DNA of 64,000 nt, from contig OW203722.1 of the NCBI GenBank assembly GCA_934045075.1, positions 22,218,429 to 22,282,428 of the forward strand, in the 5' to 3' direction. Origin of the DNA: Yponomeuta sedellus. Lineage: Eukaryota; Arthropoda; Insecta; Lepidoptera; Yponomeutidae. Shown piece by piece: positions 7,080-60,558 of the stretch. Both the position numbers and the translations under genes were made by a program. The notes under the pieces are model-generated. The model searched no databases, was not told the DNA's origin, and saw only the letters and a list, made by a program, of their open reading frames with translations. Every line of letters begins with the position of its first letter. The first letter of the stretch is position 1.

Positions 7080-7615
7080 ACATGTTTTGCCGAGAGTAGC
7101 GTGCAAATAGGAGAGGCTCGCCATCAACATCAAGTCATAAAAAGTATGTCGAAATACAATGTCAGATTAAAATTTGTCATTTAGAAATTCATTGAGATTA
7201 TAATAACATTTGTCAATTAACATTTTTTTTAACCTTATCTTAAATAAATTAGTATCTAATTGTTTATAACTTGATGGTATTTTATTATATATTATAGGAG
7301 CCATGCATATAATGCTTTTGCCCAAGAAAGCTGTCTTCGCCGGCTGTAAACGTAATTTACTTTCATCACGTCTGTTTCTGATTACCGTTGCAGACAGACG
7401 TGGAAACAGTTCAGGGTTACTTTTTACGAACACAGCTACTTCAAATATGTATAAAGCCGGAAGTGTTAGAATACGGTGTGTCACAAATAGATGTCTGCAG
7501 GTGTCAATGGGTTTAATGTGAAACATTGAACCTATACAGCGTTTTTGCATTTTAAAAGCCATTTCTTTGTTTGTTGAGTTTCCCCAAAAGATAATGCCAT
7601 ATCTAAATACGAAAT
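7080..7615 (-). pseudogene. Non-LTR retrotransposon 3' end (RT C-terminus), joined to a Pao integrase frame
   Basis: On the minus strand, residues from about 280 of a 428-codon open frame read YGIIFWGNS...MQKRCIGSMF...LPALYIFEV...KCYYNLNEFLNDKF. This is the recognisable C-terminal part of Jockey/CR1-type reverse transcriptases, after the catalytic motifs. The stop is at 7167 and about 90 bp of 3' sequence follows. The copy is 5'-truncated and keeps no catalytic residue. It is fused in frame to the integrase relic upstream, which explains the long open frame. The exact clade is uncertain. Confidence 0.7.
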
Positions 7616-19507: not shown

Positions 19508-20037
19508 GGTTTTAAAAACCTATTTAGAGGCTAAAATTCCACCCATGCCGGGATTCAAACGGATAGCCAGAGGTCGCGGGTTCGAATCCCGGCATGGGTG
19601 GAATTTCAGCCTCTAAATAGGTTATTAAAATTGTCCTTAGCACGTGTTAGTGCAATAAAAAAAAAAAATATAATCATGTGGGTACAGACAGCGATATCAT
19701 TCTGATGTAAAAACTAACTGCAAAGTAGGTACTCGGGGCTGCAAGTGATGCAAATTACTTTAGCCAGATGTCGCTGCCTGTACGTAATACAGAGTATACT
19801 GTAAAGAGGTTCGAAATTTCACTGATACCGGTGAGTCGCCCATTAGCTCAGTTGGAAAGAGCGCTGGCACGGATAGCCAGAGGTCGCGGGTTCGAATCCC
19901 GTCATGGGTGGAATTTTTAGCCTCTAAATAGGTTTAAAAACCTATTTAGAGGCTAAAAATTTCACCCATGCCGGGATTCGAACCCGCAACCTCTGGCTAT
20001 CCGTACCAGCGCTCTACCAATTCTAAATAGGTTTTTA
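19508..20037. repeat. IleR cluster with two fold-backs
   Basis: It begins with a reverse IleR end, turns inside the tRNA-like part near 19560, and runs forward through a whole unit with a second tRNA-like part at 19839-19912. It then flips again at 19935 (AATAGGTTTAAAAACCTATT) into a reverse copy ending at 20037. Three tRNA-Ile-like segments in alternating orientation lie within 530 bp. No clean target-site duplication was found. Confidence 0.7.
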
Positions 20038-23751: not shown

Positions 23752-23762
23752 TTTCTCATTCT
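23752..23762 (+). repeat. 11-bp target-site duplication, left of the IleR array
   Basis: TTTCTCATTCT here is repeated at 41199-41209, on the far side of the array and of the giant element inside it. Confidence 0.8.
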
Positions 23763-25698
23763 AAAAAACCTATTTAGAGGCTAAAAATTTCACCCATGCC
23801 GGGATTCGAACCCGCAACCTCTGGCTATCCGTACCAGCGCTCTACCAATTGAGCCAATGGGCGACTCACGGCATCAGTGAAATTTCGAACCTCTTTACAA
23901 TATTCTCTGTATTACGTACAGGCAGCGACATCTGACTTAAGCAAATTGCATTACTTACAGCCCCGACTACCTACTTTGCAGTTAGGTTTTAACATCGGAA
24001 CGATATCACTGTACCCACATGATTACACTATTATTTTTTATTTTTAATGCACTAACCCGTGCTAAGGAACAAATTTAAAAAACCTATTTAGAGGCTAAAA
24101 ATTTCACCCATGCCGGGATTCGAACCCGCAACCTCTGGCTATCCGTACCAGCGCTCTACCAATTGAGCCAATGGGCGACTCACTGCATCAGTGAAATTTC
24201 GAACCTCTTTACAATATTCTCTGTATTACGTACAGGCAGCGACATCTGACTTAAGCAAATTGCATTACTTACAGCCCCGACTACCTACTTTGCAGTTAGG
24301 TTTTAACATCGGAACGATATCACTGTACCCACATGATGCAAAGTAGGTAGTCGGGGCTGTAAGTAATGCAATTTGCTTAAGTCAGATGTCGCTGCCTGTA
24401 CGTAATACAGAGAATATTGTAAAGAGGTTCGAAATTTCACTGATGCCGTGAGTCGCCCATTGGCTCAATTGGTAGAGCGCTGGTACTGATAGCCAGAGGT
24501 TGCGGGTTCGAATCCCGGCATGGGTGAAATTTTTAGCCTCTAAATAGGTTTTTAAATTTGTTCCTTAGCACGGGTTAGTGCATTAAAAATAAAAATAGTG
24601 TAATCATGTGGGTACAGTGATAACGTTCCGATGTTAAAACCTAACTGCAAAGTAGGTAGTCGGGGCTGTAAGTAATGCAATTCGCTTAAGTCAGATGTCG
24701 CTGCCTGTACGTAATACAGAGAATATTGTAAAGAGGTTCGAAATTTCACTGATGCCGTGAGTCGCCCATTGGCTCAATTGGTAGAGCACTGGTACGGATA
24801 GCCAGAGGTTGCGGGTTCGAATCCCGGCATGGGTGAAATTTTTAGCCTCTAAATAGGTTTTTTAAATTTGTTCCTTAGCACGGGTTAGTGCATTAAAAAT
24901 AAAAAAAATAGTGTAATCATGTGGGTACAGTGATATCGTTCCGATGTTAAAACCTAACTGCAAAGTAGGTAGTCGGGGCTGTAAGTAATGCAATTTGCTT
25001 AAGTCAGATGTCGCTGCCTGTACGTAATACAGAGAATATTGTAAAGAGGTTCGAAATTTCACTGATGCCGTGAGTCGCCCATTGGCTCAATTGGTAGAGC
25101 GCTGGTACGGATAGCCAGAGGTTGCGGGTTCGAATCCCGGCATGGGTGAAAATTTTTAGCCTCTAAATAGGTTTTTTAAATTTGTTCCTTAGCACGGGTT
25201 CGTACATTAAAAATAAAAAAAATAGTGTAATCATGTGGGTACAGTGATATCGTTCCGATGTTAAAACCTAACTGCAAAGTAGGTAGTCGGGGCTGTAAGT
25301 AATGCAATTTGCTTAAGTCAGATGTCGCTGCCTGTACGTAATACAGAGAATATTGTAAAGAGGTTCGAAATTTCACTGATGCGGTGAGTCGCCCATTGGC
25401 TCAATTGGTAGAGCGCTGGTACGGATAGCCAGAGGTTGCGGGTTCGAATCCCGGCATGGGTGAAATTTTTAGCCTCTAAATAGGTTTTTTAAATTTGTTC
25501 CTTAGCACGGGTTAGTGCATTAAAAATAAAAAAAATAGTGTAATCATGTGGGTACAGTGATATCGTTCCGATGTTAAAACCTAACTGCAAAGTAGGTAGT
25601 CGGGGCTGTAAGTAATGCAATTTGCTTAAGTCAGATGTCGCTGCCTGTACGTAATACAGAGAATATTGTAAAGAGGTTCGAAATTTCACTGATGCCGT
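23763..25698. repeat. IleR tandem array, left part
   Basis: It begins with two reverse units, whose tRNA-Ile-like parts are at 23791-23862 and 24105-24176. At about 24336 the array flips and runs forward, with tRNA-like parts at 24455-24526, 24764-24836, 25077-25148 and 25391-25462. Spacing is 309-314 bp. Each unit holds a body of about 230 bp, then a tRNA-like part with B box GGTTCGAATCC, then CCTCTAAATAGGTTTT and an A-rich tail. The acceptor and T arms read like tRNA-Ile (GCCCATT...GCATGGGT); the anticodon arm is not that of a working tRNA. The near-identical short ORFs repeated here are frames of this repeat. The array is cut at 25698 by the giant LTR element. Confidence 0.9.
25695..25698 (+). 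repeat. CCGT target-site duplication, left
   Basis: CCGT directly precedes the terminal TGTAAC of the giant element. The same CCGT follows its last base at 41037-41040. Removing the element and one CCGT restores the uninterrupted unit sequence GATGCCGTGAGTCGCCC seen in the neighbouring units. Confidence 0.9.
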
Positions 25699-26467
25699 TG
25701 TAACACCCCACCCCGCGTAATAAAAATACTTTAACCCACTTAAGAAGAAAAAGCGTGCAATAATAATTAACCTACTAAAAAAAGCTATGATGCAAAACAC
25801 TCTAATGGCCAACTGTGATCGTCTAGTCTATTGAGAACCCTTCGTTGTGAACGTATTAGTAACCTAAGCTCTTTTAGGATATGAGATTGAGTAACGAGAG
25901 TGTGTAAGAGATCCGTTTAAATACAAAAGCAGAATTTAGATTAATGAACAGGAACCAAAGGTTAGCTTAAAGCAAATAAATATAAATGAAAACAGCAATC
26001 AAGCGAATGAAATAAGCGAAAGCAAGATATGATTTAGAATAAATTAAATAGATAATAGGTTAAGCTGAAATTAAGTTAAAAGAAATAAACTAGGATGAAA
26101 TATGTAACTCTTACAAAAACTACTTCTAAATAAATAAAATATAAAAGTACCAAATAAACCAAATGTCATACAACAAACACGTGAGTGTTATAGTATAACG
26201 TCCCCTACCAAAAAGGCCGGTTTAGACAGACATTATTAGCCAACTAGGTAGATAATAACGGATTAATATGAAATGAGTACAATACTCGGTTATCTACTAG
26301 TTGATAAAGCTAATTATATCTACCCTGGATGGGGTATGGCCACCACTACGTTATACTGTTAATATATACTTATAAATAATAAACTATGACAGACTAGAAA
26401 TAAGAATAGGTACAGTGATTCATTATCCCGAGTCTATTCCTCAAGTAGACATACATAATTACGAGAG

Positions 26468-27165
26468 AATTGGCAAAGCGACGTTCAGCAGTACAATGCA
26501 TTGGCAGTCGACGAAAGTGAGAGAGGTAGGTAGGTAACCAAATGCACAAAGTACGTTGGAAAAGACTTCACCGAAGCTTACCAACACTGAAACGATCTGG
26601 CCAAACTCACGCAACCATGAAATGCCACTATAGGAAAAATCAATCAACTAAAGAAAATACTAACGATAAAATCTGTACATATTCCCAAAATAAATATAAT
26701 AACCTAACTACGTATATGCCTTAAGTATCACGCACGATTAACGCAGGAATTGGCAAAGAGACGTCCAGCAGTACAATGCATTGGCAGAAGAGTGTGAGAG
26801 AGGTAGGTAACCAAATGCACAAAGTACGTTGGGAAAGACTTCATCGAAGCCTACCAACACTGAAACAATCTGGCCAAACCAACGCAACTATGAATGATAC
26901 TAAAGCACAAGTCATCATAAGGAAATAAATATGATAAACGCACAACAAGCATAATTAGGTATAAAAGTCTTAAGACCCAGGTCATTACACACAATTAACG
27001 TAAGAAACGGCAAAGGGATGTTCAGTAGTACAATGCATTGGCAGAAGAGTGTGAGTGAGGTAGGTAGACCAATGCACAAAGTACTTTGGAACAACTTCAT
27101 CGAAGCTGACCAAACTGAAACATCTCAGCCGAACCCACGCAACCATGAAATAATGCCAAGAATTA
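26468..27165. repeat. Three tandem 250-280-bp repeats inside the left LTR
   Basis: Units start near 26468, 26748 and 27004 with TTGGCAAAG-type words. They share AGTACAATGCATTGGCAG and CAAATGCACAAAGTAC, and each ends with a CACGCAACCATGAA-type block. They are diverged from one another, so they are old compared with the insertion. The right LTR has the same set from about 35306. Confidence 0.8.
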
Positions 27166-28183
27166 AGCCAATATACCTACTACAAAAATAAGCCTTACTA
27201 TTAAAAAGCCTATAGTGGCTTCTAACTACTCACTAACGTCCCATAACGTCCTTTCATTGCCTATCTTAATCCGTAATTTGATAACCCTATATATTGGACA
27301 CCCTATATCGCGACTATATTTGGACTATGCGTTCCTATATAGTATAATTATAATCTACTAACAAACGTAACATAATATAAACCGTAATTTACCACCCTAT
27401 ATACTGGACACCCTATATTGCGTATATGCCGCCTATGTGTTCCCATTCAGTAGTAAGTACCTATATGATCTATTACAAACGTAACATACCTACATAACTT
27501 CGGTCGAGAAAAGTACGCACCTACCTACATAAACGCAAGAGTTGAATGACCCGAAGGTCACGAGTTAGACAGCTATTATAAAGGTACCGCATCGCTCTAA
27601 ACCTATTCCTTAGTTCGATGGAAATGTCACTGTTAGATTAATATGCACAGAACCTCACACCTAGTGTTATCTAACCATTATTGATATTAAATATTGACAG
27701 AAGTTGTAAACAATACGTTTAGTAGGTACCAAATCAGAATTAAAATGCCATAATTTTCTAACGGGTTTAGACAGATTTACCTACCTTACCCTAATTGAAT
27801 CGAGACATTAAACGTAACGCTTTTATCTACTTGATTTAATAGCTTCAATAGGAAACATTGAGGAGACACCAATTCACTTCTTTGTTAATTTAAAATGATC
27901 CTAACAGACGAATAATGACCGCATAGGTGGGGAGCTGGGGAAATACTTACTCTCATCATTCAACTCTGGATACCCTGGAAGAAAAAGGGGAGCCTACCTA
28001 ACATTCCCAGCCCAGTAAGTTAATGAATTTAACCACCAAACAAATTGTTTCAGCAAAGCAAACCCCATTTATATTTAATCGTGTGTATGTGTGAGTGCCT
28101 ATGGTGTTTCCCTAGTCACAGCTATTACCTATCGCTATCCTCCCTAACTCCGGAAAACCTAACTGTTTCAAGTCATTAAATTC

Positions 28184-28212
28184 TTTTTAATGCACTAACA
28201 CGTGCTAAGGAC
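28184..28212 (+). repeat. IleR-tail-like motif inside the LTR
   Basis: TTTTTAATGCACTAACACGT and the following GCTAAGGA match the reverse IleR tail, with one change. The right LTR has the same at about 37019-37046. This could be a fossil IleR piece captured by the LTR. Confidence 0.6.
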
Positions 28213-29330
28213 TGACTTGACGCAATTAGCTTTCAGACTTTCTGGCCGGCCAGAGTGTGTAGCCTAGGGTGTGTATGCGTAAGTGGTTTATGGGATCGGT
28301 ACCACTTACAGGGTAAGAATATACGGAATATAATACATAGATATGTTATGGGTGCAAAGTGCCAGAGGGCTGGAATCGTCTGTCACGCAGGGAAATAGCA
28401 GGGGGAAAATTGCTATACCACAAATGCTAGTGGAAGGAGATCTAACACCACATTCACAAGAAGCATTTTAACCCAATTTTCAAGCTAGATAATTAATATG
28501 AAATTATCTCAATTAAGTAATTAATTATGACAAGTAATTATATAGGAAAATTGTTTTACAAATAAATTAAATTGGGCACACCTCCGGTGAAGGGATTCTT
28601 TAAACCTTTCAACCAAAGCAGACTCAGATTCAGCCGTAGCATAGTAAGCAGAGCTAGATATTGGAATTCCTCATTTAGTCTGTCAAATCAACTGTATAAG
28701 GCTACCAAGTGAATTCGCTCTAAATTCACACGTTTGTATGCGGAATTAAATATGATGCAAACCTCTGAAAGCTATGGCGCAGACATGTCATTGATAACCT
28801 CGTGTGCCTACATCGAGTCGAGTAGGTATTCGACAAAGGCTAGCCACACGGCCTATCCCTAACATGCCCTTGCCACCGAGAGTTTTGTTTTGCACACATT
28901 TATTTCCCCAAAAACGCTGTACTGTGGAGAAAAAGGGTTAGTTCACAATTTATTTCGCGGAAGCTACACTAATCACAAATGCTGAAAACCATATTTTTAC
29001 GCGGAAACCTTCTAGCTAATTGTACGGAATACTCACCAAAACCGTTCCTAACATTTACACTTTTTACTTTCAAATCTAATTCCCTAGCTCCGAAAGTACC
29101 TCTAAACCTGAGACTTCACACCAGGGCTGATACACTAGAACGCAATGCCCACAGATGATGCTAGGTCACAAATCCAAAGCCACTTTCCTATTACCGAATT
29201 TAAATGCAATCGAAACTCCCCAGTTCTAATAAATTCACACAAAATGGCGAATTTTCCTACGAGCGGAATAGGTGTACGTACTATTGAATTTCCTGGTCCA
29301 GAATGCGTGCGCGCCGTTGGCGCCTCGGCC

Positions 29331-29338
29331 TTTTTATA
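29331..29338 (-). promoter_or_regulatory. Candidate LTR TATA box (minus strand)
   Basis: TATAAAAA on the minus strand lies in a locally GC-rich stretch (GGCGCC, GCGCGC). In the other LTR it is at 38166-38173. If real, U3 would be about 2.9 kb and R-U5 about 3.6 kb. This rests on sequence match and orientation only. Confidence 0.35.
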
Positions 29339-30336
29339 GCCTCGCGAAACAACCCCGCGCGTCCAAAATGGCTCCGCTCCCAATTCCGCTTTGTCTAACC
29401 CATCATGAAACCTAATGACACCCGATTGGCCAGCCGAAATCCACCTCCATCTCGTTTCAGAACTTTAATGTTTTGATATTTTGTAAATTAATTTCCTGTG
29501 TCTTAATGTAATACATTATTTATTTTCTATTTATTTATCTCGATATTTCCTGTTTAATTGATTTGTCTACAATAATTTCTTCTTAACAATTTATTCCAAC
29601 ACACCACTGACCTGCGGCACAATGCTTACGGACAACTAACTAACTTCTGTTAATATAAAAGTTTAGCGTAATGTCTGTGTTAAAACATCCTTTCAATTTA
29701 GTACAGATTTACCTAGAAATACTCTACTTAGCCTACAATTGCGAATTGAAACGTTATAATCATTTTAGTAGGCGCCGCGGCAACTAGTGGCGCCCAAACC
29801 GGAATCGGCTAACCGGAGAACTACAACCCACCAATACAGCAATACTCTAAACTCACACACGCAACCCTGTATGAATACGAGAAGAAGCTGCGTTCAACAA
29901 TATTTAATTATTAGGGATGCCCTAAATGCTACATTTCAAAAGTGATGAATGATTCAATTCCTTTCCCGAACATTGAATAAATAGCTCTTAGCAGTTCGTG
30001 ACTAAATATATTACGTGTCGTGTTTCATTCCTATTTACGAGTAACAACTTTAGCTATCCCTCTAGCAACAATTATAAATAATTATACCATTCGCAAATAT
30101 TATGGTATTAAGTTAATATACTTTGAAATTTTGATTTTATTGAAATAAGTAACGTCACAAGACTATCGAAGGCATAGAGCCATGAAAGAAAACCAATAAA
30201 CAATCAAAATAGAAATTACTACGTTGGACAAATTATGTTAAGAATAATAACTGTTATACAACAGAAACATACATTACAACATTAGTCCCATACTGTCCCA
30301 AGCGACGTGCATGGTTGTTTTAAAAAAGTTGAACGG

Positions 30337-30420
30337 AATCGAACCCGCGTACCGTCCGATCTTCGCACTACACCTACCAAATACGTGCGTCACTCGCCTA
30401 ACTGTAGGTACGTGTCTCGG
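30337..30420 (-). repeat. tRNA-like relic in the LTR
   Basis: The minus strand carries GCGGGTTCGATTCCGTT, a full B-box consensus, followed at once by a T-run that could stop Pol III. An A-box-like segment lies upstream. The same occurs in the right LTR near 39172-39255. It looks like a SINE head trapped in the LTR; a cloverleaf does not fold cleanly by eye. Confidence 0.4.
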
Positions 30421-30639
30421 CAGTCGGCGCCGCCGGTTACTAACGCGGAACGGAATGAGACCATGTGGTTTCTTTTATAGACATTAAGTTTATGATTGAT
30501 TATCATACGAGATTACGTATAGGTGATCTAGATATAAAAAGGGATATGAAGGGAATCATTCGAGTTCTTTTTCTTTTGTTTAAATCGTTCAACCCCAACA
30601 CTAGCCTAGATAGTTTAATATCCATTCTCAAATGAAACT

Positions 30640-31230
30640 AGATGTTTTTTTTTTTTTAATTGATTAATTATGAGCTTTATTTATTTTGTTTTTGTGAATA
30701 GACCATTTTTTTACAGAGACAATATTACATCGATGTGATTAGTTTCCTTTCACGTTAAGACACATTAATAACCTCTGAAAGCAGCCGTAAAGAACATTTA
30801 GTGATCTCAGTCTCGGCTAGATGGAGCTAGTAGTTATTTTGATTTATTGAGTTTTATTAAATTAATTGTTTAAGTGAATATATTACTTTTACAAAGTCTC
30901 TAATATTACATCGGTGCGTTATACATTAGTTTTCTTTCATGACAAGACATATTAAAAGCTTTTTAAAGAAATTGAAAGTAGGATTAAAGAAAGTTTAGTG
31001 AACCTATTCTCACCTAGATGGAGTTAGTAGTTATTTGATTGATTATAAGTTTTAGTAATTTTTATTGTTTAAGTGAATATAATACTTTTACCAAGTCTCT
31101 GATATTACATCGGTGTGTTATAAATTAGTTTCCCTTCATAACAATATGTATTATCGACATACTACAGAGTTTAAACGTAGCATTAATTATCGTTTTGTGA
31201 TTCTATTCTCTCCTAGGTAGGGGCTAAATT
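30640..31230. repeat. Three tandem 180-200-bp repeats inside the left LTR
   Basis: Blocks containing ATATTACATCG start near 30722, 30902 and 31102. Each is followed by a TTAGTTTCC/TTTCTTTCA-type word and TAGATGGAG.TAGTAGTTATT. Copies are 70-80 percent alike by eye. The right LTR repeats them from about 39555. Confidence 0.75.
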
Positions 31231-32206
31231 GAATGTTTTAGAGATTATTCTTATTTATATCTTTAGTATATGGTTTTCTGTCTTCAAATCACTAACATAA
31301 AATCGCTGTGAATAACTCAGTATACTTTGATAACCATAACATTACCTCAACACGGAATTTTACCTACTTAACTACTAGGTAAATAAATGCTTATAAAATC
31401 TACAAGCGCGTGCAAAAACAAGAAAGATATTGAAATTTGTTCTTATAATCTACTATTTTAATAGTGATAGCAATTAACATTTGATTTGAAAGCAGTTAAA
31501 GGGAATCTACTTCCCAGCCGCCGATAGCGCCATCTATCTGTTAGGATGAAATGCCGTGTCACAAGTGATAGGTAGCGGACGAGTTTTTTCCAATCGATAG
31601 TATATTAGTTGTGCGTTCGTCCACTGCAGATGTCGTTGTAACTTATTATTTTATTCCATTATTTATTTAGTCATCCCTAAATTCTTGTTGCACAATTTAA
31701 TCTAGGTATAACAAACCCTGTTAGAAAACAAAATAATGTCTAGCTGTATTTCAGTCTTCGAATAGACTACTACATAAAGAATCCTATTGCATAATTTTGT
31801 TTTGTTTAAATGCAAATTGGCCCAGCGGCGACAGACGCCGATCTCCACCGGAAGGCCGCGGGATCGAACCCAGCCTCACTCAGCAAACGGAATGTTTTTC
31901 TTTTCTTTTTATGACTAATAACGGAAATGTCGATTAGTACACAAACAAACCTCAACAAATCCCCAGAAAGCGTCCCCGCTACGAAACTTATTTGTTGTAT
32001 TTATAGATTTATTGTAATGCCTAACTTGAATGATAAGGACCTTCTAACGACTAAAGTGCCTACCTACCTAATCAATCTCGTTAATTAAATAGTGTTTCCG
32101 CGATTTTACTACGTAACCTATCTCGAACCAAACTCGCACAGAACACAATTCAAATCTATATCAACGATCGTGAGCACTTCTATGGACCTTGGTCCGTTAC
32201 AATCAA

Positions 32207-32211
32207 CCCCC
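32207..32211 (-). promoter_or_regulatory. Candidate polypurine tract
   Basis: Read on the minus strand, AATTTTGGGGG then TTGAT precede the LTR that starts TGTAACGG. A G-run a few bases before the 3' LTR is where the polypurine primer of LTR elements sits. The run is short. Confidence 0.45.
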
Positions 32212-34517
32212 AAAATTTGGATAAGACCTGACGTTATCAAATTTTCAATAAAACATAAGTGATCACGAGAGTATTTTGCTTTAAAAATTACTAATTACCT
32301 TCTTGTTTCACTATTTTCCAAATGTGACGGAATGAATGAGTTTTGTTTTTCAACCAGACTCTTCGGATAATTGACTACGTGAAATTTCAATCGACACCGT
32401 TTTATTCGGATCGCTTAGCAGCTTTTAACCCAGCCTATCATTTAAGACCTTGATAAAGAGATCCTGGTTGTGAGGCAGGACAGCCCGAAGGCACCGACTA
32501 CTAACTACCAGATACACTCGCATTAAACTCCAAAGGGGAGGCCTCCCCAAGAGCAAGCGTGCACCGGTAATAGAACCGACTCTTACAATAGCCTCAAATA
32601 ACAATCAGCTGTGAGATCACTACCGAAAGCTATCAAACAAACGATATTAATCAATTAAAATCCCCAATCGACAACATCTTCGCTTCTGGAGCTTGTGTAG
32701 TTGCCGAAACTAGTTCTTAGCTTCTTGTGGAGTCCGGGATACAAATACAATTTAAATTACTTTAAAATGAAAACCAAAAGATGTATTTGTATCCGATTGA
32801 GGTGTGTGCTGTATTCAGAAACATAATAAAACAAGTTATCTGCGTTAGACCGATTCACCGAACTCTAGAACTTCCATTCAAGCCCCTCTTTCATTATCTT
32901 TCTTTATAAACCAACTAATTCCTTCCTCATCCATTGAATTATACCCAAACATACTCTTACTTGTTTTCATACTGATATATGAAGCCTGAGAATTAAGCGA
33001 ATCAACTCTTCGCAGTCAAATACATTTTTTATTACCGCGGCATAAAATAAACAAATTTATTTAAACAAAGCCCACGACCGCAAATATATCTATTGACAGA
33101 CGTTATGAGACGCAAGATTTTTTTTTTTTTTACCTTACACAATACCTTGAATTACCTTGATTACCGTACACAATACCTCAAAATTTCATTACCAGAATAC
33201 CTTTCAAAACCTTTTTAATTACCTGGGTTATAAATGTACAGTCAACGACGAAAATTAAATAATCAAATTATAACCCGATTAAATTATTCCGCATTCGGTT
33301 TTTACTAACAAAGATATTTGGGTAAACGCAAGTTATAAGAAAATTAATAATAATAGTGCAGTTTAAGAATGTTCGATTATCTACTTTTATCGTTTACTGT
33401 ACGCGGATTATTAAAACAAAACATGACTGTTTTTTTTTTTAATATTAATTATTTTTTTCTATACGTGGATTACCAAAATCAAACAAAAAGTGTTTTTTTT
33501 TTATAAAATAATTTATTAAGTAAAATAAGAAATAACGAAATATCCAAATGTTGTTTAAAATATCATATTTTTTTTTTGTTAATAGAACAAATCACAGCTC
33601 TAAATACCTACTAATAATTAAAATAATAAGTCTTTATTAACGCAACCGCTGAATTACGAAACCTACCGAATTACGCAAAACTAGATTCTTAATAATACCT
33701 ACTATAAGAGCAACCCCCCGCCAAGAAAACTTTGTTATTTATATTTCTTTTTACTACAACCTCCCAAATGAAAGACTAGTTTCCGCCAAATGAATATCTT
33801 GAAAAAAAAAAGATAATTATCAAACCAGCATAAAATAAGTAAACCAAATTAATTAATTTAAAACAAAAGCAAGTTTAAATATTAAACAGACAATATTCAT
33901 AAGGAAAGTCAATTAAAAATCTTGGGATACTTCTATATTTAGGCAACCCCCATACGAAAATACCCTAGGTTAATAAAATTGGCTGATAAAGCTGATAAAA
34001 TTAAGCAAAGTTCCTTTTATTAATTTCCTAATAGGTTTATTAGTTTACTAAATTAAAAATATTATTTGCCCTAGCTTCCCAATGAACGTAACTAAGTGTG
34101 GCTTAAAATATAGTTTCATACAACCCCCCGAATAAAAAACCGTTGACATACCTATACCTAATTAACAACTGAACCGTGTAACTTTAACAGAATAAAATAT
34201 GTCTAACGAACTACAGTTTCTGCTTTAAAATTAAGTAATTTAGTTGGAAGACGCTATGGAACGCTAGTCGAAGTAACATGATTACAAGTAGCAATTAGAT
34301 TAATCGATCCATACGCGAATAAAATATTTAGTTTCATTCGCGTACGCATCCAAAAATCTTTACGAAAGCATATAAACGGATCTCAATCACACCCCCATCG
34401 TCAATCTCAAACCTTTCCATTTCACGAACATCAAATTGTGGCATAAAGCCAACGATAATGAAAAGAAAAAAGAATATTTTGCATCATATATTTAAGCTAC
34501 TCAATCTTAAACATTAT

Positions 34518-34533
34518 GGTCACGGCAACACCA
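34518..34533 (-). promoter_or_regulatory. Candidate primer-binding site (tRNA-His-like)
   Basis: On the minus strand, three bases after the LTR, the sequence is TGGTGTTGCCGTGACC. TGCCGTGACC matches the complement of the 3' end of eukaryotic tRNA-His as I remember it, but a 3-base insertion separates it from the TGG that pairs with CCA. Position and TGG start fit a PBS; the tRNA assignment is tentative. Confidence 0.45.
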
Positions 34534-34536
34534 TAT

Positions 34537-37500
34537 TGTAACACCCCACCCCGCGTAATAAAAATACTTTAACCCACTTAAGAAGAAAAAGCGTGCAATA
34601 ATAATTAACCTACTAAAAAAAGCTATGATGCAAAACACTCTAATGGCCAACTGTGATCGTCTAGTCTATTGAGAACCCTTCGTTGTGAACGTATTAGTAA
34701 CCTAAGCTCTTTTAGGATATGAGATTGAGTAACGAGAGTGTGTAAGAGATCCGTTTAAATACAAAAGCAGAATTTAGATTAATGGACAGGAACCAAAGGT
34801 TAGCTTAAAGCAAATAAATATAAATGAAAACAGCAATCAAGCGAATGAAATAAGCGAAAGCAAGATATGATTTAGAATAAATTAAATAGATAATAGGTTA
34901 AGATGAAATTAAGTTAAAAGAAATAAACTAGGATGAAATATGTAACTCTTACAAAAACTACTTCTAAATAAATAAAATATAAAAGTACCAAATAAACCAA
35001 ATGTCATACAACAAACACGTGAGTGTTATAGTATAACGTCCCCTACCAAAAAGGCCGGTTAAGACAGACATTATTAGCCAACTAGGTAGATAATAACGGA
35101 TTAATATGAAATGAGTACAATACTCGGTTATCTACTAGTTGATAAAGCTAATTATATCTACCCTGGATGGGGTATGGCCACCACTACGTTATACTGTTAA
35201 TATATACTTATAAATAATAAACTATGACAGACTAGAAATAAGAATAGGTACAGTGATTCATTATCCCGAGTCTATTCCTCAAGTAGACATACATAATTAC
35301 GAGAGAATTGGCAAAGCGACGTTCAGCAGTACAATGCATTGGCAGTCGACGAAAGTGAGAGAGGTAGGTAGGTAACCAAATGCACAAAGTACGTTGGAAA
35401 AGACTTCACCGAAGCTTACCAACACTGAAACGATCTGGCCAAACTCACGCAACCATGAAATGCCACTATAGGAAAAATCAATCAACTAAAGAAAATACTA
35501 ACGATAAAATCTGTACATATTCCCAAAATAAATATAATAACCTAACTACGTATATGCCTTAAGTATCACGCACGATTAACGCAGGAATTGGCAAAGAGAC
35601 GTCCAGCAGTACAATGCATTGGCAGAAGAGTGTGAGAGAGGTAGGTAACCAAATGCACAAAGTACGTTGGGAAAGACTTCATCGAAGCCTACCAACACTG
35701 AAACAATCTGGCCAAACCAACGCAACTATGAATGATACTAAAGCACAAGTCATCATAAGGAAATAAATATAATAAACGCACAACAAGCATAATTAGGTAT
35801 AAAAGTCTTAAGACCCAGGTCATTACACACAATTAACGTAAGAAACGGCAAAGGGATGTTCAGTAGTACAATGCATTGGCAGAAGAGTGTGAGTGAGGTA
35901 GGTAGACCAATGCACAAAGTACTTTGGAACAACTTCATCGAAGCTGACCAAACTGAAACATCTCAGCCGAACCCACGCAACCATGAAATAATGCCAAGAA
36001 TTAAGCCAATATACCTACTACAAAAATAAGCCTTACTATTAAAAAGCCTATAGTGGCTTCTAACTACTCACTAACGTCCCATAACGTCCTTTCATTGCCT
36101 ATCTTAATCCGTAATTTGATAACCCTATATATTGGACACCCTATATCGCGACTATATTTGGACTATGCGTTCCTATATAGTATAATTATAATCTACTAAC
36201 AAACGTAACATAATATAAACCGTAATTTACCACCCTATATACTGGACACCCTATATTGCGTATATGCCGCCTATGTGTTCCCATTCAGTAGTAAGTACCT
36301 ATATGATCTATTACAAACGTAACATACCTACATAACTTCGGTCGAGAAAAGTACGCACCTACCTACATAAACGCAAGAGTTGAATGACCCGAAGGTCACG
36401 AGTTAGACAGCTATTATAAAGGTACCGCATCGCTCTAAACCTATTCCTTAGTTCGATGGAAATGTCACTGTTAGATTAATATGCACAGAACCTCACACCT
36501 AGTGTTATCTAACCATTATTGATATTAAATATTGACAGAAGTTGTAAACAATACGTTTAGTAGGTACCAAATCAGAATTAAAATGCCATAATTTTCTAAC
36601 GGGTTTAGACAGATTTACCTACCTTACCCTAATTGAATCGAGACATTAAACGTAACGCTTTTATCTACTTGATTTAATAGCTTCATGAAACATTGAGGAG
36701 ACACCAATTCACTTCTTTGTTAATTTAAAATGATCCTAACAGACGAATAATGACCGCATAGGTGGGGAGCTGGGGAAATACTTACTCTCATCATTCAACT
36801 CTGGATACCCTGGAAGAAAAAGGGGAGCCTACCTAACATTCCCAGCCCAGTAAGTTAATGAATTTAACCACCAAACAAATTGTTTCAGCAAAGCAAACCC
36901 CATTTATATTTAATCGTGTGTATGTGTGAGTGCCTATGGTGTTTCCCTAGTCACAGCTATTACCTATCGCTATCCTCCCTAACTCCGGAAAACCTAACTG
37001 TTTCAAGTCATTAAATTCTTTTTAATGCACTAACACGTGCTAAGGACTGACTTGACGCAATTAGCTTTCAGACTTTCTGGCCGGCCAGAGTGTGTAGCCT
37101 AGGGTGTGTATGCGTAAGTGGTTTATGGGATCGGTACCACTTACAGGGTAAGAATATACGGAATATAATACATAGATATGTTATGGGTGCAAAGTGCCAG
37201 AGGGCTGGAATCGTCTGTCACGCAGGGAAATATCAGGGGGAAAATTGCTATACCACAAATGCTAGTGGAAGGAGATCTAACACCACATTCACAAGAAGCA
37301 TTTTAACCCAATTTTCAAGCTAGATAATTAATATGAAATTATCTCAATTAAGTAATTAATTATGACAAGTAATTATATAGGAAAATTGTTTTACAAATAA
37401 ATTAAATTGGGCACACCTCCGGTGAAGGGATTCTTTAAACCTTTCAACCAAAGCAGACTCAGATTCAGCCGTAGCATAGTAAGCAGAGCTAGATATTGGA

Positions 37501-40500
37501 ATTCCTCATTTAGTCTGTCAAATCAACTGTATAAGGCTACCAAGTGAATTCGCTCTAAATTCACACGTTTGTATGCGGAATTAAATATGATGCAAACCTC
37601 TGAAAGCTATGGCGCAGACATGTCATTGATAACCTCGTGTGCCTACATCGAGTCGAGTAGGTATTCGACAAAGGCTAGCCACACGGCCTATCCCTAACAT
37701 GCCCTTGCCACCGAGAGTTTTGTTTTGCACACATTTATTTCCCCAAAAACGCTGTACTGTGGAGAAAAAGGGTTAGTTCACAATTTATTTCGCGGAAGCT
37801 ACACTAATCACAAATGCTGAAAACCATATTTTTACGCGGAAACCTTCTAGCTAATTGTACGGAATACTCACCAAAACCGTTCCTAACATTTACACTTTTT
37901 ACTTTCAAATCTAATTCCCTAGCTCCGAAAGTACCTCTAAACCTGAGACTTCACACCAGGGCTGATACACTAGAACGCAATGCCCACAGATGATGCTAGG
38001 TCACAAATCCAAAGCCACTTTCCTATTACCGAATTTAAATGCAATCGAAACTCCCCAGTTCTAATAAATTCACACAAAATGGCGAATTTTCCTACGAGCG
38101 GAATAGGTGTACGTACTATTGAATTTCCTGGTCCAGAATGCGTGCGCGCCGTTGGCGCCTCGGCCTTTTTATAGCCTCGCTAAACAACCCCGCGCGTCCA
38201 AAATGGCTCCGCTCCCAATTCCGCTTTGTCTAACCCATCATGAAACCTAATGACACCCGATTGGCCAGCCGAAATCCACCTCCATCTCGTTTCAGAACTT
38301 TAATGTTTTGATATTTTGTAAATTAATTTCCTGTGTCTTAATGTAATACATTATTTATTTTCTATTTATTTATCTCGATATTTCCTGTTTAATTGATTTG
38401 TCTACAATAATTTCTTCTTAACAATTTATTCCAACACACCACTGACCTGCGGCACAATGCTTACGGACAACTAACTAACTTCTGTTAATATAAAAGTTTA
38501 GCGTAATGTCTGTGTTAAAACATCCTTTCAATTTAGTACAGATTTACCTAGAAATACTCTACTTAGCCTACAATTGCGAATTGAAACGTTATAATCATTT
38601 TAGTAGGCGCCGCGGCAACTAGTGGCGCCCAAACCGGAATCGGCTAACCGGAGAACTACAACCCACCAATACAGCAATACTCTAAACTCACACACGCAAC
38701 CCTGTATGAATACGAGAAGAAGCTGCGTTCAACAATATTTAATTATTAGGGATGCCCTAAATGCTACATTTCAAAAGTGATGAATGATTCAATTCCTTTC
38801 CCGAACATTGAATAAATAGCTCTTAGCAGTTCGTGACTAAATATATTAAGTGTCGTGTTTCATTCCTATTTACGAGTAACAACTTTAGCTATCCCTCTAG
38901 CAACAATTATAAATAATTATACCATTCGCAAATATTATGGTATTAAGTTAATATACTTTGAAATTTTGATTTTATTGAAATAAGTAACGTCACAAGACTA
39001 TCGAAGGCATAGAGCCATGAAAGAAAACCAATAAACAATCAAAATAGAAATTACTACGTTGGACAAATTATGTTAAGAATAATAACTGTTATACAACAGA
39101 AACATACATTACAACATTAGTCCCATACTGTCCCAAGCGACGTGCATGGTTGTTTTAAAAAAGTTGAACGGAATCGAACCCGCGTACCGTCCGATCTTCG
39201 CACTACACCTACCAAATACGTGCGTCACTCGCCTAACTGTAGGTACGTGTCTCGGCAGTCGGCGCCGCCGGTTACTAACGCGGAACGGAATGAGACCATG
39301 TGGTTTCTTTTATAGACATTAAGTTTATGATTGATTATCATACGAGATTACGTATAGGTGATCTAGATATAAAAAGGGATATGAAGGGAATCATTCGAGT
39401 TCTTTTTCTTTTGTTTAAATCGTTCAACCCCAACACTAGCCTAGATAGTTTAATATCCATTCTCAAATGAAACTAGATGTTTTTTTTTTTTAATTGATTA
39501 ATTATGAGCTTTATTTATTTTGTTTTTTGTGAATAGACCATTTTTTTACAGAGACAATATTACATCGATGTGATTAGTTTCCTTTCACGTTAAGACACAT
39601 TAATAACCTCTGAAAGCAGCCGTAAAGAACATTTAGTGATCTCAGTCTCGGCTAGATGGAGCTAGTAGTTATTTTGATTTATTGAGTTTTATTAAATTAA
39701 TTGTTTAAGTGAATATATTACTTTTACAAAGTCTCTAATATTACATCGGTGCGTTATACATTAGTTTTCTTTCATGACAAGACATATTAAAAGCTTTTTA
39801 AAGAAATTGAAAGTAGGATTAAAGAAAGTTTAGTGAACCTATTCTCACCTAGATGGAGTTAGTAGTTATTTGATTGATTATAAGTTTTAGTAATTTTTAT
39901 TGTTTAAGTGAATATAATACTTTTACCAAGTCTCTGATATTACATCGGTGTGTTATAAATTAGTTTCCCTTCATAACAATATGTATTATCGACATACTAC
40001 AGAGTTTAAACGTAGCATTAATTATCGTTTTGTGATTCTATTCTCTCCTAGGTAGGGGCTAAATTGAATGTTTTAGAGATTATTCTTATTTATATCTTTA
40101 GTATATGGTTTTCTGTCTTCAAATCACTAACATAAAATCGCTGTGAATAACTCAGTATACTTTGATAACCATAACATTACCTCAACACGGAATTTTACCT
40201 ACTTAACTACTAGGTAAATAAATGCTTATAAAATCTACAAGCGCGTGCAAAAACAAGAAAGATATTGAAATTTGTTCTTATAATCTACTATTTTAATAGT
40301 GATAGCAATTAACATTTGATTTGAAAGCAGTTAAAGGGAATCTACTTCCCAGCCGCCGATAGCGCCATCTATCTGTTAGGATGAAATGCCGTGTCACAAG
40401 TGATAGGTAGCGGACGAGTTTTTTCCAATCGATAGTATATTAGTTGTGCGTTCGTCCACTGCAGATGTCGTTGTAACTTATTATTTTATTCCATTATTTA

Positions 40501-41036
40501 TTTAGTCATCCCTAAATTCTTGTTGCACAATTTAATCTAGGTATAACAAACCCTGTTAGAAAACAAAATAATGTCTAGCTGTATTTCAGTCTTCGAATAG
40601 ACTACTACATAAAGAATCCTATTGCATAATTTTGTTTTGTTTAAATGCAAATTGGCCCAGCGGCGACAGACGCCGATCTCCACCGGAAGGCCGCGGGATC
40701 GAACCCAGCCTCACTCAGCAAACGGAATGTTTTTCTTTTCTTTTTATGACTAATAACGGAAATGTCGATTAGTACACAAACAAACCTCAACAAATCCCCA
40801 GAAAGCGTCCCCGCTACGAAACTTATTTGTTGTATTTATAGATTTATTGTAATGCCTAACTTGAATGATAAGGACCTTCTAACGACTAAAGTGCCTACCT
40901 ACCTAATCAATCTCGTTAATTAAATAGTGTTTCCGCGATTTTACTACGTAACCTATCTCGAACCAAACTCGCACAGAACACAATTCAAATCTATATCAAC
41001 GATCGTGAGCACTTCTATGGACCTTGGTCCGTTACA
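34537..41036 (-). repeat. LTR, right copy (5' LTR if sense is minus)
   Basis: 6500 bp, collinear with the left copy. Differences I could see are A/G at 25947/34785, and others matching left positions 26066, 26223, 26933, 28398, 29346 and 30014. There is also a 3-bp deletion near left position 27849 and two homopolymer length changes near 30645 and 30692. One substitution (TAG to TAT) opens a 77-codon frame at 37090-37323 in this copy only, which shows how little such frames mean. Confidence 0.85.
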
Positions 41037-41198
41037 CCGTGAGTCGCCCATTGGCTCAATTGGTAGAGCGCTGGTACGGATAGCCAGAGGTTGCGGGTTC
41101 GAATCCCGGCATGGGTGAAATTTTTAGCCTCTAAATAGGTTTTTTAAATTTGTTCCTTAGCACGGGTTAGTGCATTAAAAATAAAAAAAATAGTGTAA
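41037..41198 (+). repeat. IleR tandem array, right remnant
   Basis: The rest of the interrupted unit: CCGTGAGTCGCCC, the tRNA-Ile-like part at 41046-41117, CCTCTAAATAGG and the A-rich tail, ending AATAGTGTAA. The 11-bp duplication TTTCTCATTCT follows at 41199-41209. Confidence 0.85.
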
Positions 41199-41209
41199 TT
41201 TCTCATTCT
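41199..41209 (+). repeat. 11-bp target-site duplication, right of the IleR array
   Basis: Same TTTCTCATTCT as at 23752-23762. The array and everything within it therefore occupy what was one insertion site. Confidence 0.8.
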
Positions 41210-43578: not shown

Positions 43579-43890
43579 TATGTATGTATGTATGTATGTA
43601 TGTATGTATGTATGTATGTATGTATGTATGTATGTATGTATGTATGTATGTATGTATGTATGTATGTATGTATGTATGTATGTATGTATGTATGTATGTA
43701 TGTATGTATGTATGTATGTATGTATGTATGTATGTATGTATGTATGTATGTATGTATGTATGTATGTATGTATGTATGTATGTATGTATGTATGTATGTA
43801 TGTATGTATGTATGTATGTATGTATGTATGTATGTATGTGTGTGTGTATGTATGTATGTATGTATGTATGTACGAGGTATGTATGTATGT
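43579..43890 (+). repeat. (TATG)n microsatellite, about 310 bp
   Basis: An almost pure TATG run to about 43838, then a GTGTGTG interruption and short impure repeats. Being a 4-base repeat without stops, it is open in all frames and gives false MYVC and TYIH proteins on both strands. Confidence 0.97.
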
Positions 43891-48037: not shown

Positions 48038-48185
48038 GAAAAGCGCGGGAACCTTGGATGAGTAAAGGCGGCGAAATTTGAACAATTTTCAATAAATTGA
48101 TAACTTTTATATTTCTCTGTAAATACAAAGTGAATTGTACATAATTATAGTTGGTAGACAAGTTTGTACATATTGTAATTAGAAG

Positions 48186-49280
48186 ATGGGGGCGGGAAAG
48201 AAGCGGAAAAAAACTGATCCCCCTGACGAGCGATCATCACCAGCTATGGACACTTCGGACTCGGATGATGACTCCTCCAGGAAGTACAATGTTTTTAAGG
48301 TTCCAGGGTACTCTAGGAGGTATCCTGAAAACAGTAAAAAATCGGAATACATAGTGTTCGTGTCACACGAAAATGAAAAACCGTTTTCCGACAAAGACAG
48401 GCTAGCTCTCTCCCATGCCATACGCAAATTCTGCGTCACTGGCATTCTACATCTGAAGTCAGTAAATAAATTCAAGATTGGCATTACGTTCGATTTGTCA
48501 AACAATGCAAATGTGTTTATGCAGAATAAAAAATTACTCGACGAACTAGACCTGAAGGCCACTATACCGGCTAGCGACACTGAAGCGACTGGGGTTCTTA
48601 CCTCAGTCCCTACTGACCTTTCCAACAAACAAATCTTCTCGTTGATTGGCAGCTCTCGAAATGTAATTCAAGTGAGACGTTTCATGCGTCGGGTGCGGAG
48701 TGACGACGGCGACGTGTCACATCTTCCCACTCAGACAGTCGCGGTAACTTTTGCATCCACTGAATTGCCTCAGTACGTCTATCTCGATTCTTGGAGACAC
48801 GAGGTAAGCGCTTATATACCACCAGTAAAGCAATGTCTTCAGTGCATGAAGTTTGGCCACATTGCCAAATACTGCCGAAATTCGGTTGTGTGCTCGATCT
48901 GCACAGAAAATCACCATTTTAAAACATGTAAAGAGGATCCTAAAAACGCGAAATGCTGCAACTGCGGAGGCAATCACATAGCTATCTCTAACACATGTCC
49001 ACAAAAAAAATTGAAAATAGAGGAAAACAAAATTAAGTCAAGGGCCGTCACATACTCAGATTTATTCAGTGAAAACTCCTTCCCCCAATTAACAAAATCG
49101 AACATCGAAACACAAATTCAAAATTTAACGAAATCAGATTTTTTCATGAACATACTCATTCAAGCAATTACAAAAATAGTTACAAATCAGAAAAACACCC
49201 CAATCAACTCTACATCAATAAAAGAAATCTTAGCACAAACTGTAAGAAATACCACTTCTTCTAACAATGGATCAACTTAA
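48186..49280 (+). CDS. ORF1: gag-like RNA-binding protein with three CCHC knuckles
   Basis: 364 residues. This protein should coat the element's RNA and carry it with ORF2 protein to the target. The N-terminus is basic, then acid-rich (DTSDSDDDSS, 22-31). The middle part, about 50-200, is the folded region usual in these proteins, without a motif I can name. Three zinc knuckles follow: C217-C220-H225-C230, C236-C239-H244-C248 and C257-C260-H264-C271. The tail is polar and rich in Asn, Thr and Ser. The ATG at 48186 is the first in frame after the 5' region. The stop overlaps the ORF2 start by 14 bases in another frame. ORF2 is therefore likely made by reinitiation or a similar coupled mechanism; this is inference. 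Confidence 0.9.
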   Translation: MGAGKKRKKTDPPDERSSPAMDTSDSDDDSSRKYNVFKVPGYSRRYPENSKKSEYIVFVSHENEKPFSDKDRLALSHAIRKFCVTGILHLKSVNKFKIGITFDLSNNANVFMQNKKLLDELDLKATIPASDTEATGVLTSVPTDLSNKQIFSLIGSSRNVIQVRRFMRRVRSDDGDVSHLPTQTVAVTFASTELPQYVYLDSWRHEVSAYIPPVKQCLQCMKFGHIAKYCRNSVVCSICTENHHFKTCKEDPKNAKCCNCGGNHIAISNTCPQKKLKIEENKIKSRAVTYSDLFSENSFPQLTKSNIETQIQNLTKSDFFMNILIQAITKIVTNQKNTPINSTSIKEILAQTVRNTTSSNNGST

Positions 49281-52200
49281 TATTATGCAGTGGAACTCCC
49301 AGAGTATTATTAGCAATAAATTTCTATTAACACAATTTCTTTATGAAAACGATATACATGTAGCAATAATATCAGAGACTTGGCTAACTCCTATTAAAGA
49401 TTTTAACATAAAAGGATATCGAATAGAAAGAAACGATATTGGTAATAAACATAATGGTGTAGCAATTTTAATACATAATAGTTTAAATTATAAAAAAATT
49501 AATACATATTCGGACAACTCCTTACAAAACATTTGTGTAAGGATATCTGTAAATAATAAAGAAATGAGTATTGTAAGTTTTTACTGTCCTACAAACTGTG
49601 TCCCATCTTTTGATAAACTTAAATTTCAGTCAATAATAGAGTCAATACCCGAACCAATGTTATTTGCAGGTGATTTTAATGCTCACCATACTTTGTGGGG
49701 GTGCCATTCTATTAATCCTAGAGGAAGAGATATTTTGGAAATTATTGATGAAAAAAATTTGGTTGTTTTGAATTCCGGCGAGGTTACTACTGTGGGCTCC
49801 TTGACATGGCGTCCCAATGCTTTGGATTTATCACTGGCTTCCCCATCACTGGCTCTGTCTTGCGATTGGTCTGTACATAATGATCCTCTTGGCAGCTACC
49901 ATCTTCCTGTAATTATTAAGGTTTTTGTAAATAATAGTATTAATGATGATGGTCTTGTAAACAGCAATGGTGCTAATCCTTTGCCCATCTATCCTAACTT
50001 TAAAATGATCAATTGGACATTATATGAACAATATGTAGACACACAACTGTCTGATTTTCAGGTTGAAAATTACACTCCGTTGACAGCATATAACAGTTTT
50101 TGTAACATATTGCATAATGTAGTTAATGACTCTCTTACAAATCGTAATTCTGTTTCTTCTTCTTTTGGTGCTATCAACTCTCGTCGTAGACTGATACGCA
50201 AGAAGCTCTCTCTTCCTTGGTGGAATAAAAAATGTTCAGAAGCTGTAGAAAATTTCAAACTTGCCTATATTAACTTTAAAAATAATCCTTCAGATCAATC
50301 TTACATTGAATTTAAAAAATTACAAGCACATAAAAAACTTTTGTTAAAAATGGAAAGATCTAATAGCTGGATTGAACTGTGTAGCTCCTTCAATCGATGT
50401 ACACCTCTGTCAATAATCTGGAATTGTATGCGTAAATTCAACAAAACTTACTCTTTTAATAATGACAATGATAGTTGGATACAAGATTTTTTGCAAAAGT
50501 ATACACCCGACCATGTAAATAATAAACCAAAATTTTCCCCGGACAGTGAAACAAATCCTGTAAATAATTTTATGATAAAATCTTTCTCAATTGAAGAATT
50601 AATATCAGCTATTCTCTCGAGAAAAGATGGCGCATTTGGTCTGGATGGTATTCCTTATATAATGTTAAAAAGGCTTAGTAAAAATAGCTTACAGATTTTG
50701 CTTGAAATATTAAATAACCTATGGTTGAGCAACGAGATTCCCCACTCATGGAAGTCCGATTGTTTAGTGCCCATATTAAAGCCAGATAAGCCTCGATCAA
50801 ATCCAGATTCCTACCGTCCTATTGCTTTGACATCTTGCATAGGCAAAGTTTTTGAACAACTGATAAAACAAAGGTTGGAATTTTATGTAGAACAAAATAG
50901 TATTTTACCTTCTAATCAATTTGGCTTTCGAAGAGGAACATCAGCTCGTGAAAGCATCTGTCAGCTGCAGCTTGACATACAAAATAGTTTAAATAAAAAA
51001 TATTATTTGATGTCGGTGTTTTTTGATGTGTCTGGAGCATTTAATAGTGTCAATGTCGACATTCTTTGTGTTGAGTTACTTTCCATCGGGATCCCAAATA
51101 AAATTGTTAATTGGATTCATAATTTTCTTACTGAGAGGGAAGTCTATGTAAAATATAATGGTAATCTTTATGGTCCACGATTCGCTTCTGTTGGTGTTTG
51201 TCAAGGCGGAATACTTTCTCCATTAATTTTCCTCTTATATATCCGCCGTTTAAATCTCATTTTGGGTTCTGAAGTCAAAAATCTTCAATTTGCTGACGAC
51301 TTGGTTGTTTATGCATCTGGAAAAAAATTAAAAAACATCAGTGAAATTCTTAACAAATCTTTAAAAGGGTTGTCTACATACTTCACCTATCTGAATCTTG
51401 ATATAAATGCATTAAAATCTAAAGTGGTTGTATTTGGTAAAGCTAGCAATAATATTCCTTCTGTATTCTACAACAAAGTCCCCATTCCTGTTTCTCAAGA
51501 GGCTAAGTTTTTAGGTATTATCTTTACTCACAATATGTCTTGGAAAAAATATGTTGAATTGCTAAGTTTAAGAGCCAATAAGGCCCATAATATTTTTAAA
51601 TCTTTGTGCAGGATTTCGTGGGGAGCAGATCCGAAAATATTGTTACTTCTGTACAAATCATTGGTTCGTAGTCATTTTGAATATGGTTTTCTTTGTTTTG
51701 GTGGTGACAGTAGATTGGTGAATGCCTTGGATAAAATTCAAAATAAAAACTTGAGACTCATCACAGGAGCATTTAAAAGTACTCCTATAAATGTAATGCA
51801 GGTGGAGTGCAAACTCCCTCCATTAGCTATTAGATTTACTTATCTGAAAGAAAGATTTTTATTAAAATTATATAGTAAGAGAAATAATTACCTATTGCTG
51901 AGCTTGATGAATTCTCCTCCAAATTCTCTTTATATCCTTCAGGGCTTTGCTCAGTACATTAATTTTCTGGAAACATTACAGATTTATAAATCCCCTCTCC
52001 TTCCTTGTTATCAGGGAAATTTTCTTAGTAAATTTCCTGCAATAAATATAATAATTGATCACAATCTATGCACCAAACAAGATGTGTACAACAAACTTTC
52101 AGAGTTCACTGATGATTGTAGATTCCTCTATACTGATGGGTCCAAAACTGATAATGCTGTCTCGTTTGCTTTCTTTGATGGCTTTTTTAATTTAGGCACT

Positions 52201-56792: not shown

Positions 56793-57226
56793 TCGAAATT
56801 TCACTGATGCCGTGAGTCGCCCATTGGCTCAATTGGTAGAGCGCTGGCACGGATAGCCAGAGGTTGCGGGTTCGAATCCCGGCATGGGTGAAATTTTTAG
56901 CCTGTAAATAGGTTTTTAAATTTGTTCCTTAGCACGGGTTAGTGCATTAAAAATAAAATAGTGTAATCATGTGGGTACAGTGATATCGTTCCGATGTTAA
57001 ACCTAACTGCAAAGTAGGTGGTCGGGGCTGTAAGTAATGCAATTTGCTTAAGTCAGATGTCGCTGCCTGTACGTAATACAGAGAATAGTGTAAAGAGGTT
57101 CGAAATTTCACTGATGCCGTGAGTCACCCACTGGCTCAATTGGTAGAGCGCTGGCACGGATAGCCAGAGCTTGCGGGTTCGAATCCCGGCATGGGTGAAA
57201 TTTTAGCCTCTAAATAGGTTTTTAAA
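56793..57226 (+). mobile_element. IleR dimer, 5'-truncated
   Basis: Two forward tRNA-Ile-like parts (about 56819-56889 and 57125-57195) lie roughly 306 bp apart. The left end starts just before the first tRNA-like part and the right end is CTCTAAATAGGTTTTTAA. It interrupts a LINE coding frame, which can be read across once it is removed. A short AT-rich duplication is possible but unclear. The dimer entered as one unit or duplicated after entry. Confidence 0.75.
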
Positions 57227-57689
57227 TATAATTTTTTGTTCCCACTATTTAGGCTGGCAAAGGTTAATATATCCTTCATGGGGTATTGTATACGCTTCTT
57301 TACTAAAATCCTTGAAGATATATTAAGCTTGCCTGAATCGCGGTTCAAAAAATATGTTAAGCACACTTTGTGCCAAAATGGCTACTATAACATAAAGAAT
57401 TATTTAGATGACAATGAGGTCTGGAATTAAAGCCAGTACAATGTATGAGTTCTATGTTTATAATAATTATGTAAAATATGGTAATTAAGGACTTTTGAAA
57501 AGACTAAATTAGGAGTTTTTTTTGTCCATTTTTTCTCCTAAATGATCTAGATTTTGAAATGGACACCTAGTTTGAATTGTAAAGTTCATTAAGCCGCAGT
57601 TTCTGTGCTACTTTGAATAAAACTTTTTCATTTTATTTTATTTCATTTCAAGAAATAATTTTCTACTGCAAAGCAGAGTTGGCAGTGAC

Positions 57690-60533: not shown

Positions 60534-60558
60534 AAGGTTAAGAACCACTGGCTTAGAC

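Follow-up and report, generated by a model that had tools for sequence, protein, structure and literature searches.

The question raised by this locus is whether a very long element that appears to lack genes can be a true long terminal repeat (LTR) retrotransposon and, if so, what could have mobilised it. The stretch analysed here (the window) comprises 64,000 nucleotides of Yponomeuta sedellus DNA, corresponding to C1:22218429-22282428 of a host genome of 657.5 Mb. At 25699..41036 it carries a 15.3-kb element in which two direct repeats surround a 2335-bp interior. Our results indicate that this is very probably a recently inserted, gene-less LTR retrotransposon of Ty3/Gypsy type, similar to the large retrotransposon derivatives (LARDs) and belonging to a lineage with giant LTRs. 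A coding relative has the same interior ends and related LTR sequence, and mobilisation in trans is inferred.

Alignment of the two repeats (6503 and 6500 bp) revealed 8 substitutions and 5 gap columns. The LTR termini are TGTAAC...GTTACA, and CCGT is found on both outer sides of the element, whereas the inner flanks of the two repeats differ, so that the match is confined to the outer flanks. When the flanks were joined by a script, the resulting sequence aligned across the junction to unbroken 313-bp array units within 24337-25544 at approximately 98%; it also aligned to 56793-56958 at 98.2%, with only 20 bases to the left of the junction. These observations confirmed the original prediction, made from the letters of the window alone, of two such repeats with a CCGT duplication and a target restored by removal of the element. 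Its further claim that the 15.3 kb contain neither gag nor pol was also upheld, since the reading frames were no longer than expected by chance. Simulation gave a median of 99 aa and a 95% point of 135 for the LTR, whose longest stop-to-stop frame was 109 aa, and a median of 82 for the interior, whose longest was 68 aa. Ten of the 27 element frames of at least 50 aa were compared with Pfam and none scored above the cut-off (best E 0.13), and an Rfam search of the element returned nothing at E up to 1.

The element belongs to a family that is dispersed in the host genome. A query of LTR bases 1-1001 yielded 272 first-look candidates, and all 40 that were scored were full-length matches (96-100%); the interior query yielded 87 candidates, 40 of which were scored at 93-100%. 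Exact motifs for the junctions between LTR and interior occurred 77 times on the primer side, where the motif included three extra bases described below, and 76 times on the polypurine side (19-mer), while the reversed controls gave 0. The primer sites represent 61 loci, with an uneven orientation in the assembly (19 plus, 42 minus). Primer-side and polypurine-side motifs could be paired in 73 of 77 cases, leaving four of the former and three of the latter, and the interior measured 2.29-2.53 kb in 69 of the 73 pairs (3.36, 5.27, 7.65 and 19.3 kb in the remaining four). The exact 3' end of the LTR was found 213 times (control 0). Among the first 100 of these ends listed, 35 precede an interior, 25 close an element and 40 do neither; for 33 of the latter, no further same-strand motif of the family lies within 25 kb, which makes them candidate solo LTRs. 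The LTR ends of the retrieved copies lie at constant positions, barring truncated or broken copies; ends at different places had been named beforehand as grounds for rejecting the element.

Matching 4-bp duplications were observed at the outer flanks of 16 of 17 testable loci. These included all five single full elements for which both flanks were retrieved (CCGT in the window, ACGC, AACT, AGTC and, at the coding partner described below, ACCC), eight of nine testable dimers, and three of three solo LTRs, each of which spans the full LTR; one of the solo LTRs (C21:16.77M) starts with TA rather than TG. The count leaves out two arrays, on C8 (left end not found) and on C10 (left LTR without its first 662 bases), and several other retrieved copies were read at one outer end only. 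With constant ends, short duplications, full copies and solo LTRs across the genome, the prediction of a non-autonomous, LARD-like family whose LTRs are nearly three times as long as the interior was borne out, while its minus-strand reading, its tandem arrays and the giant LTRs of its partner had been missed.

A coding partner sharing the ends and the primer-site region, which the original prediction had proposed to look for, was found at C24:5292429-5300074, where 7.65 kb lie between the interior ends of the family. On the minus strand this locus carries gag (356 aa) and pol (1193 aa), which lie in different reading frames and overlap by 139 nt. The domains follow the Ty3/Gypsy order of gag, then pol with protease, reverse transcriptase, RNase H and integrase. 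In Pfam, the pol frame matched G-patch, reverse transcriptase, RNase H and integrase families, with protease barely over the cut-off, and the gag frame matched no family. The best solved relative was Ty3 Gag-Pol (E 2.6e-84). Among 120 pol relatives listed, the named ones with at least 52% identity were all from Lepidoptera: Parnassius mnemosyne (62-68% over 42-69% of the query), Plutella xylostella (57% over 94%) and Phthorimaea operculella. The closest full-length relatives in that list matched at 68-69% over 94-96%. In the partner's pol (L030:2148-5726, minus strand) the protease is preceded by the G-patch domain, a Pfam domain that many listed homologues also have.

Compared with the partner, the interior of the window element retains approximately 1.0 kb on the polypurine side, the first 864 bp being 98.96% identical, and 0.79 kb on the leader side (92.1%). 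Judged from where its LTRs end and from the ACCC duplication, the partner has LTRs spanning 7.29 and 7.56 kb, which exceed 6.5 kb by about 0.8 and 1.1 kb. The LTR sequence itself was read as the ends and two 1-kb pieces, and the compared end pieces were 99.6-100% identical to each other. Three other loci with long interiors (C6:9.71M, C24:12.78M and C12:15.88M) were rejected as coding copies, as the pieces retrieved lacked the partner's gag-pol. The C24:12.78M piece consisted of an LTR fragment and array-unit repeats, and of two 4-kb pieces of the 19.3-kb interior at C12:15.88M, one contained 130 bp of family interior and the other none.

A minus-strand reading of the element is indicated by its primer site and by the gag-pol of its partner, both of which lie on that strand; a plus-strand reading was dropped once these had appeared. 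The primer site begins three bases inside the LTR end and pairs with the 3'-terminal 11 nt of host tRNA-His and with CCA, these two parts being separated by three extra nucleotides. A tRNA-His 3'-end pattern with the shared 11-mer had 10 exact host matches, and the two that were retrieved were both called tRNA-His. The three extra bases (34528-34530) are present in 11 of 11 aligned interiors and in the partner. On the polypurine side, the 3' LTR is preceded on the minus strand only by GGGGG and then TTGAT. The adjoining 700 bp are nearly invariant among the 11 aligned interiors, including the C8 copy, which is 2.9% divergent over the whole interior. This conservation fits either selected cis signals or homogenisation by template switching, and the data do not decide between them. 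Predicted RNA structure of these 700 bp was not distinctive (z -2.0, as compared to -1.6 for another interior stretch, with 20 shuffles each).

Within the LTR, a candidate TATA box would set a U3 of about 2.9 kb and an R-U5 of about 3.6 kb; further TATA-like sites occur on both strands. Among seven LTR lineages, variable columns number approximately 9 per 200 in 25699-29298, the side expected to be transcribed, and approximately 13 per 200 in the rest of the LTR; 29099-29298 stands out with 25. This pattern is in modest agreement with the proposed transcribed side.

The family appears to have spread recently, because differences are few both between paired LTRs and among four loci; no clock was applied. 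The LTRs of single elements differ at 8 of 6499 positions in the window, 2 of 6298 at C1:10.7M, 6 of 6496 at C21:14.1M and 0 of 6497 on C2. The loci at C1:10.7M, C2, C21:14.1M and C10 are within 0.12% of one another, and the other lineages compared are 1.2-2.7% divergent.

It is most likely that the element was mobilised in trans by a relative that carries gag-pol. RNA polymerase II would transcribe the minus strand from inside one LTR into the other, and the resulting RNA, about 8.8 kb long, would contain one LTR and the interior. Reverse transcription would be primed by tRNA-His, and the Gag, reverse transcriptase and integrase of the coding relative would act in trans to package, copy and insert the gene-less RNA. 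After insertion, exchange between the near-identical 6.5-kb LTRs could delete the interior, leaving a solo LTR, or multiply it into a tandem array of LTRs and interiors.

Several observations weigh against this interpretation. The candidate polypurine tract is a weak one, and three nucleotides of the primer site are in excess of what tRNA-His would predict. One dimer, at C26:10.87-10.90M, has unequal outer flanks. The partner's LTR pieces are 1-9% different from those of the window element, so the recent spread could have had a mobiliser other than this copy. The partner's own two LTRs also differ by 265 bp in length. The count of a single partner is based on a search with gag, and mobilisation in trans is a deduction rather than an observation. 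A broader proposal, which we offer tentatively, is a helper-satellite system in which a single coding element in the assembled genome might sustain dozens of gene-less loci. These would have kept no cis signals but the interior ends and would spread further into arrays by LTR-LTR exchange, with the long LTR itself being the selected, functional part.

The origin of the arrays is the point at which an alternative survives best. More than one interior in tandem was found at 13 of the 61 loci, the longest array, on C10, having five. The matching outer duplications of eight of the nine dimers point to a single insertion event, followed by unequal LTR exchange, or else to insertion of a dimer. It is conceivable, if rather doubtful, that the arrays represent insertion of concatemeric complementary DNA, or assembly error, and not exchange after insertion. 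Insertion of a dimer is equally compatible with the matching duplications, and the two interiors score equally or nearly so in the six dimers in which both were scored. On the side of exchange, LTRs of such length and near-identity make good substrates. Its expected reciprocal product, a lone LTR end, is also common, accounting for 33 of the 100 ends listed (three solo LTRs having been checked for duplications); neither point is decisive.

The identity of the mobiliser can also be questioned. Another Ty3/Gypsy family might mobilise the gene-less elements, in which case the coding locus would be a one-off recombinant that had gained gag-pol. The genome search with gag is in line with this, as all 31 candidates were scored and yielded one identical sequence, the partner locus, and two remote ones (28% and 25%), against 61 loci of the family. 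However, the coding locus is flanked by a target duplication of its own, the end pieces of its two LTRs are nearly identical, and it has in common with the gene-less elements the leader, the primer site and the polypurine side, which are the signals expected for use in trans. We therefore consider such a recombinant unlikely.

It is also very improbable that the LTR only looks long through nested insertions in a shorter one. The LTR of the window element does hold internal tandem repeats, some copies have insertions inside the LTR (C8, for example), and the partner LTRs extend beyond 6.5 kb. Against this, among 41 of the 77 primer sites (those on C1-C13) the LTR could be measured at 33, and in 31 of these it is 6.30-6.68 kb long, and the three solo LTRs with matching duplications cover the full length. 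An ancient expansion of the LTR is possible. A 6.5-kb DNA transposon inserted twice independently, or a segmental duplication, with the copies 2.3 kb apart by chance, would account for the 6-bp inverted ends TGTAAC/GTTACA and for the lack of coding sequence, but can be dismissed as scarcely credible, being contradicted by the restriction of the CCGT match to the outer flanks, by the recurrence of the same interior with constant ends at dozens of loci, and by the primer site and, at one locus, gag-pol between those ends.

The likeness to LARDs is one of structure, with no claim of membership in the plant LARD family, and consists of two long LTRs, a non-coding interior, a primer site and many uniform copies. 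According to the portions of the literature available to us, LARDs have LTRs of about 4.4 kb and central domains of 3.5 kb and were, in 2012, reported from plants only (PMC3532108). That statement is superseded, since LARD-class annotations are given for the honey bee (PMC4028053), bumblebees (PMC4414376) and whitefly (PMC9143410); one LARD-like element is mentioned in Culex (PMC3286476). The passages covered on the insect annotations give no LTR lengths for LARDs. Unlike LARDs, the present element has an LTR of 6.5 kb, an interior of 2.3 kb and a coding giant-LTR relative in the same genome. Thus, on the sources as covered, the LARD class is not new to insects, and the original description of the element as unusual for an insect holds for the length of its LTRs and less so for its gene-less class; the identified coding partner is the other unusual feature. 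In literature covered without most subscription papers and without Repbase, we found no gene-less insect element with giant LTRs.

The partner's pol is of the same type as that of lepidopteran Ty3/Gypsy elements (Metaviridae), from which its 7.3-7.6-kb LTRs differ. In the parts of the surveys available, LTRs longer than 1.5 kb were not found in Drosophila or Anopheles gambiae and those longer than 3 kb were uncommon (PMC3485330), and LTRs of the Osvaldo lineage in Culex reach 2055 bp (PMC3286476). Terminal-repeat retrotransposons in miniature (TRIMs), such as Helenus and Cassandra, whose LTRs have small-RNA-like parts, are likewise non-autonomous LTR elements. The available text describes 4-bp duplications for animal Helenus, a longest element of 1263 bp, and TRIMs shorter than 1 kb (PMC10886601); with a size limit of about 1 kb, the 15.3-kb element was rejected as a member. 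Alternating arrays of LTR and interior, as seen here with a unit of about 8.8 kb, are known for the maize TRIM Wukong and for Cassandra, for which the passages available propose unequal crossing over (PMC4528315, PMC7215508). Large gene-less LTR elements are mostly annotation classes without a named mobiliser. The present pair, a gene-less family and a coding relative with even longer LTRs, is a defined system for testing mobilisation in trans, the smallest set of cis signals, and how LTR length affects the exchange that gives solo LTRs and arrays. A single IMG/VR match to the first 20 LTR bases was rejected as a chance match in a phage-like contig.

Features of the element in the window
Feature	Coordinates	Strand	Basis
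Left target-site duplication, CCGT	25695..25698	.	sequence
LTR, 6503 bp (3' LTR in minus-strand reading)	25699..32201	-	repeat comparison
Candidate TATA box TATAAAAAG, in most GC-rich 250-bp LTR bin	29330..29338	-	
Interior, 2335 bp, non-coding	32202..34536	-	
Polypurine-side interior segment common with coding partner, corresponding to partner's 3' non-coding region	32202..33207	-	alignment
GGGGG just ahead of 3' LTR, weak candidate polypurine tract	32207..32211	-	read from sequence
About 540 bp of AT-rich sequence in place of partner's ~5.8 kb including gag-pol	33208..33748	-	alignment
Leader segment common with coding partner, 92.1%	33749..34536	-	alignment
Primer binding site, complement of tRNA-His 3' end	34517..34533	-	host tRNA match
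LTR, 6500 bp (5' LTR in minus-strand reading)	34537..41036	-	repeat comparison
Right target-site duplication, CCGT	41037..41040	.	sequence

In the window, a tRNA-Ser-like unit (41044-41119) has the insertion 7 bases upstream of it. Targeting next to tRNA-like genes is not supported for the family: of 35 loci scanned (of 62 retrieved), 6 gave a single tRNA call, and none of these calls was closer than about 190 bp to an insertion point. The 313-bp unit occurs in tandem and inverted copies at 23758-25698, 41037-41199, 2845-3180, 19559-19935, 56793-57227 and 60201-60535. It has a tRNA-Ser-like part, with anticodon GGA in 13 of 14, and the window received 14 tRNA calls from ARAGORN and 15 from Rfam; the units are probably tRNA-derived repeats. 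Elsewhere in the window, plus-strand frames of 365 and 1263 aa (48183-53037) look by eye like a non-LTR retrotransposon, a 435-aa minus-strand frame (7167-8474) resembles by eye the integrase end of a BEL/Pao element, and 43579-43890 is a TATG microsatellite of 78 copies.

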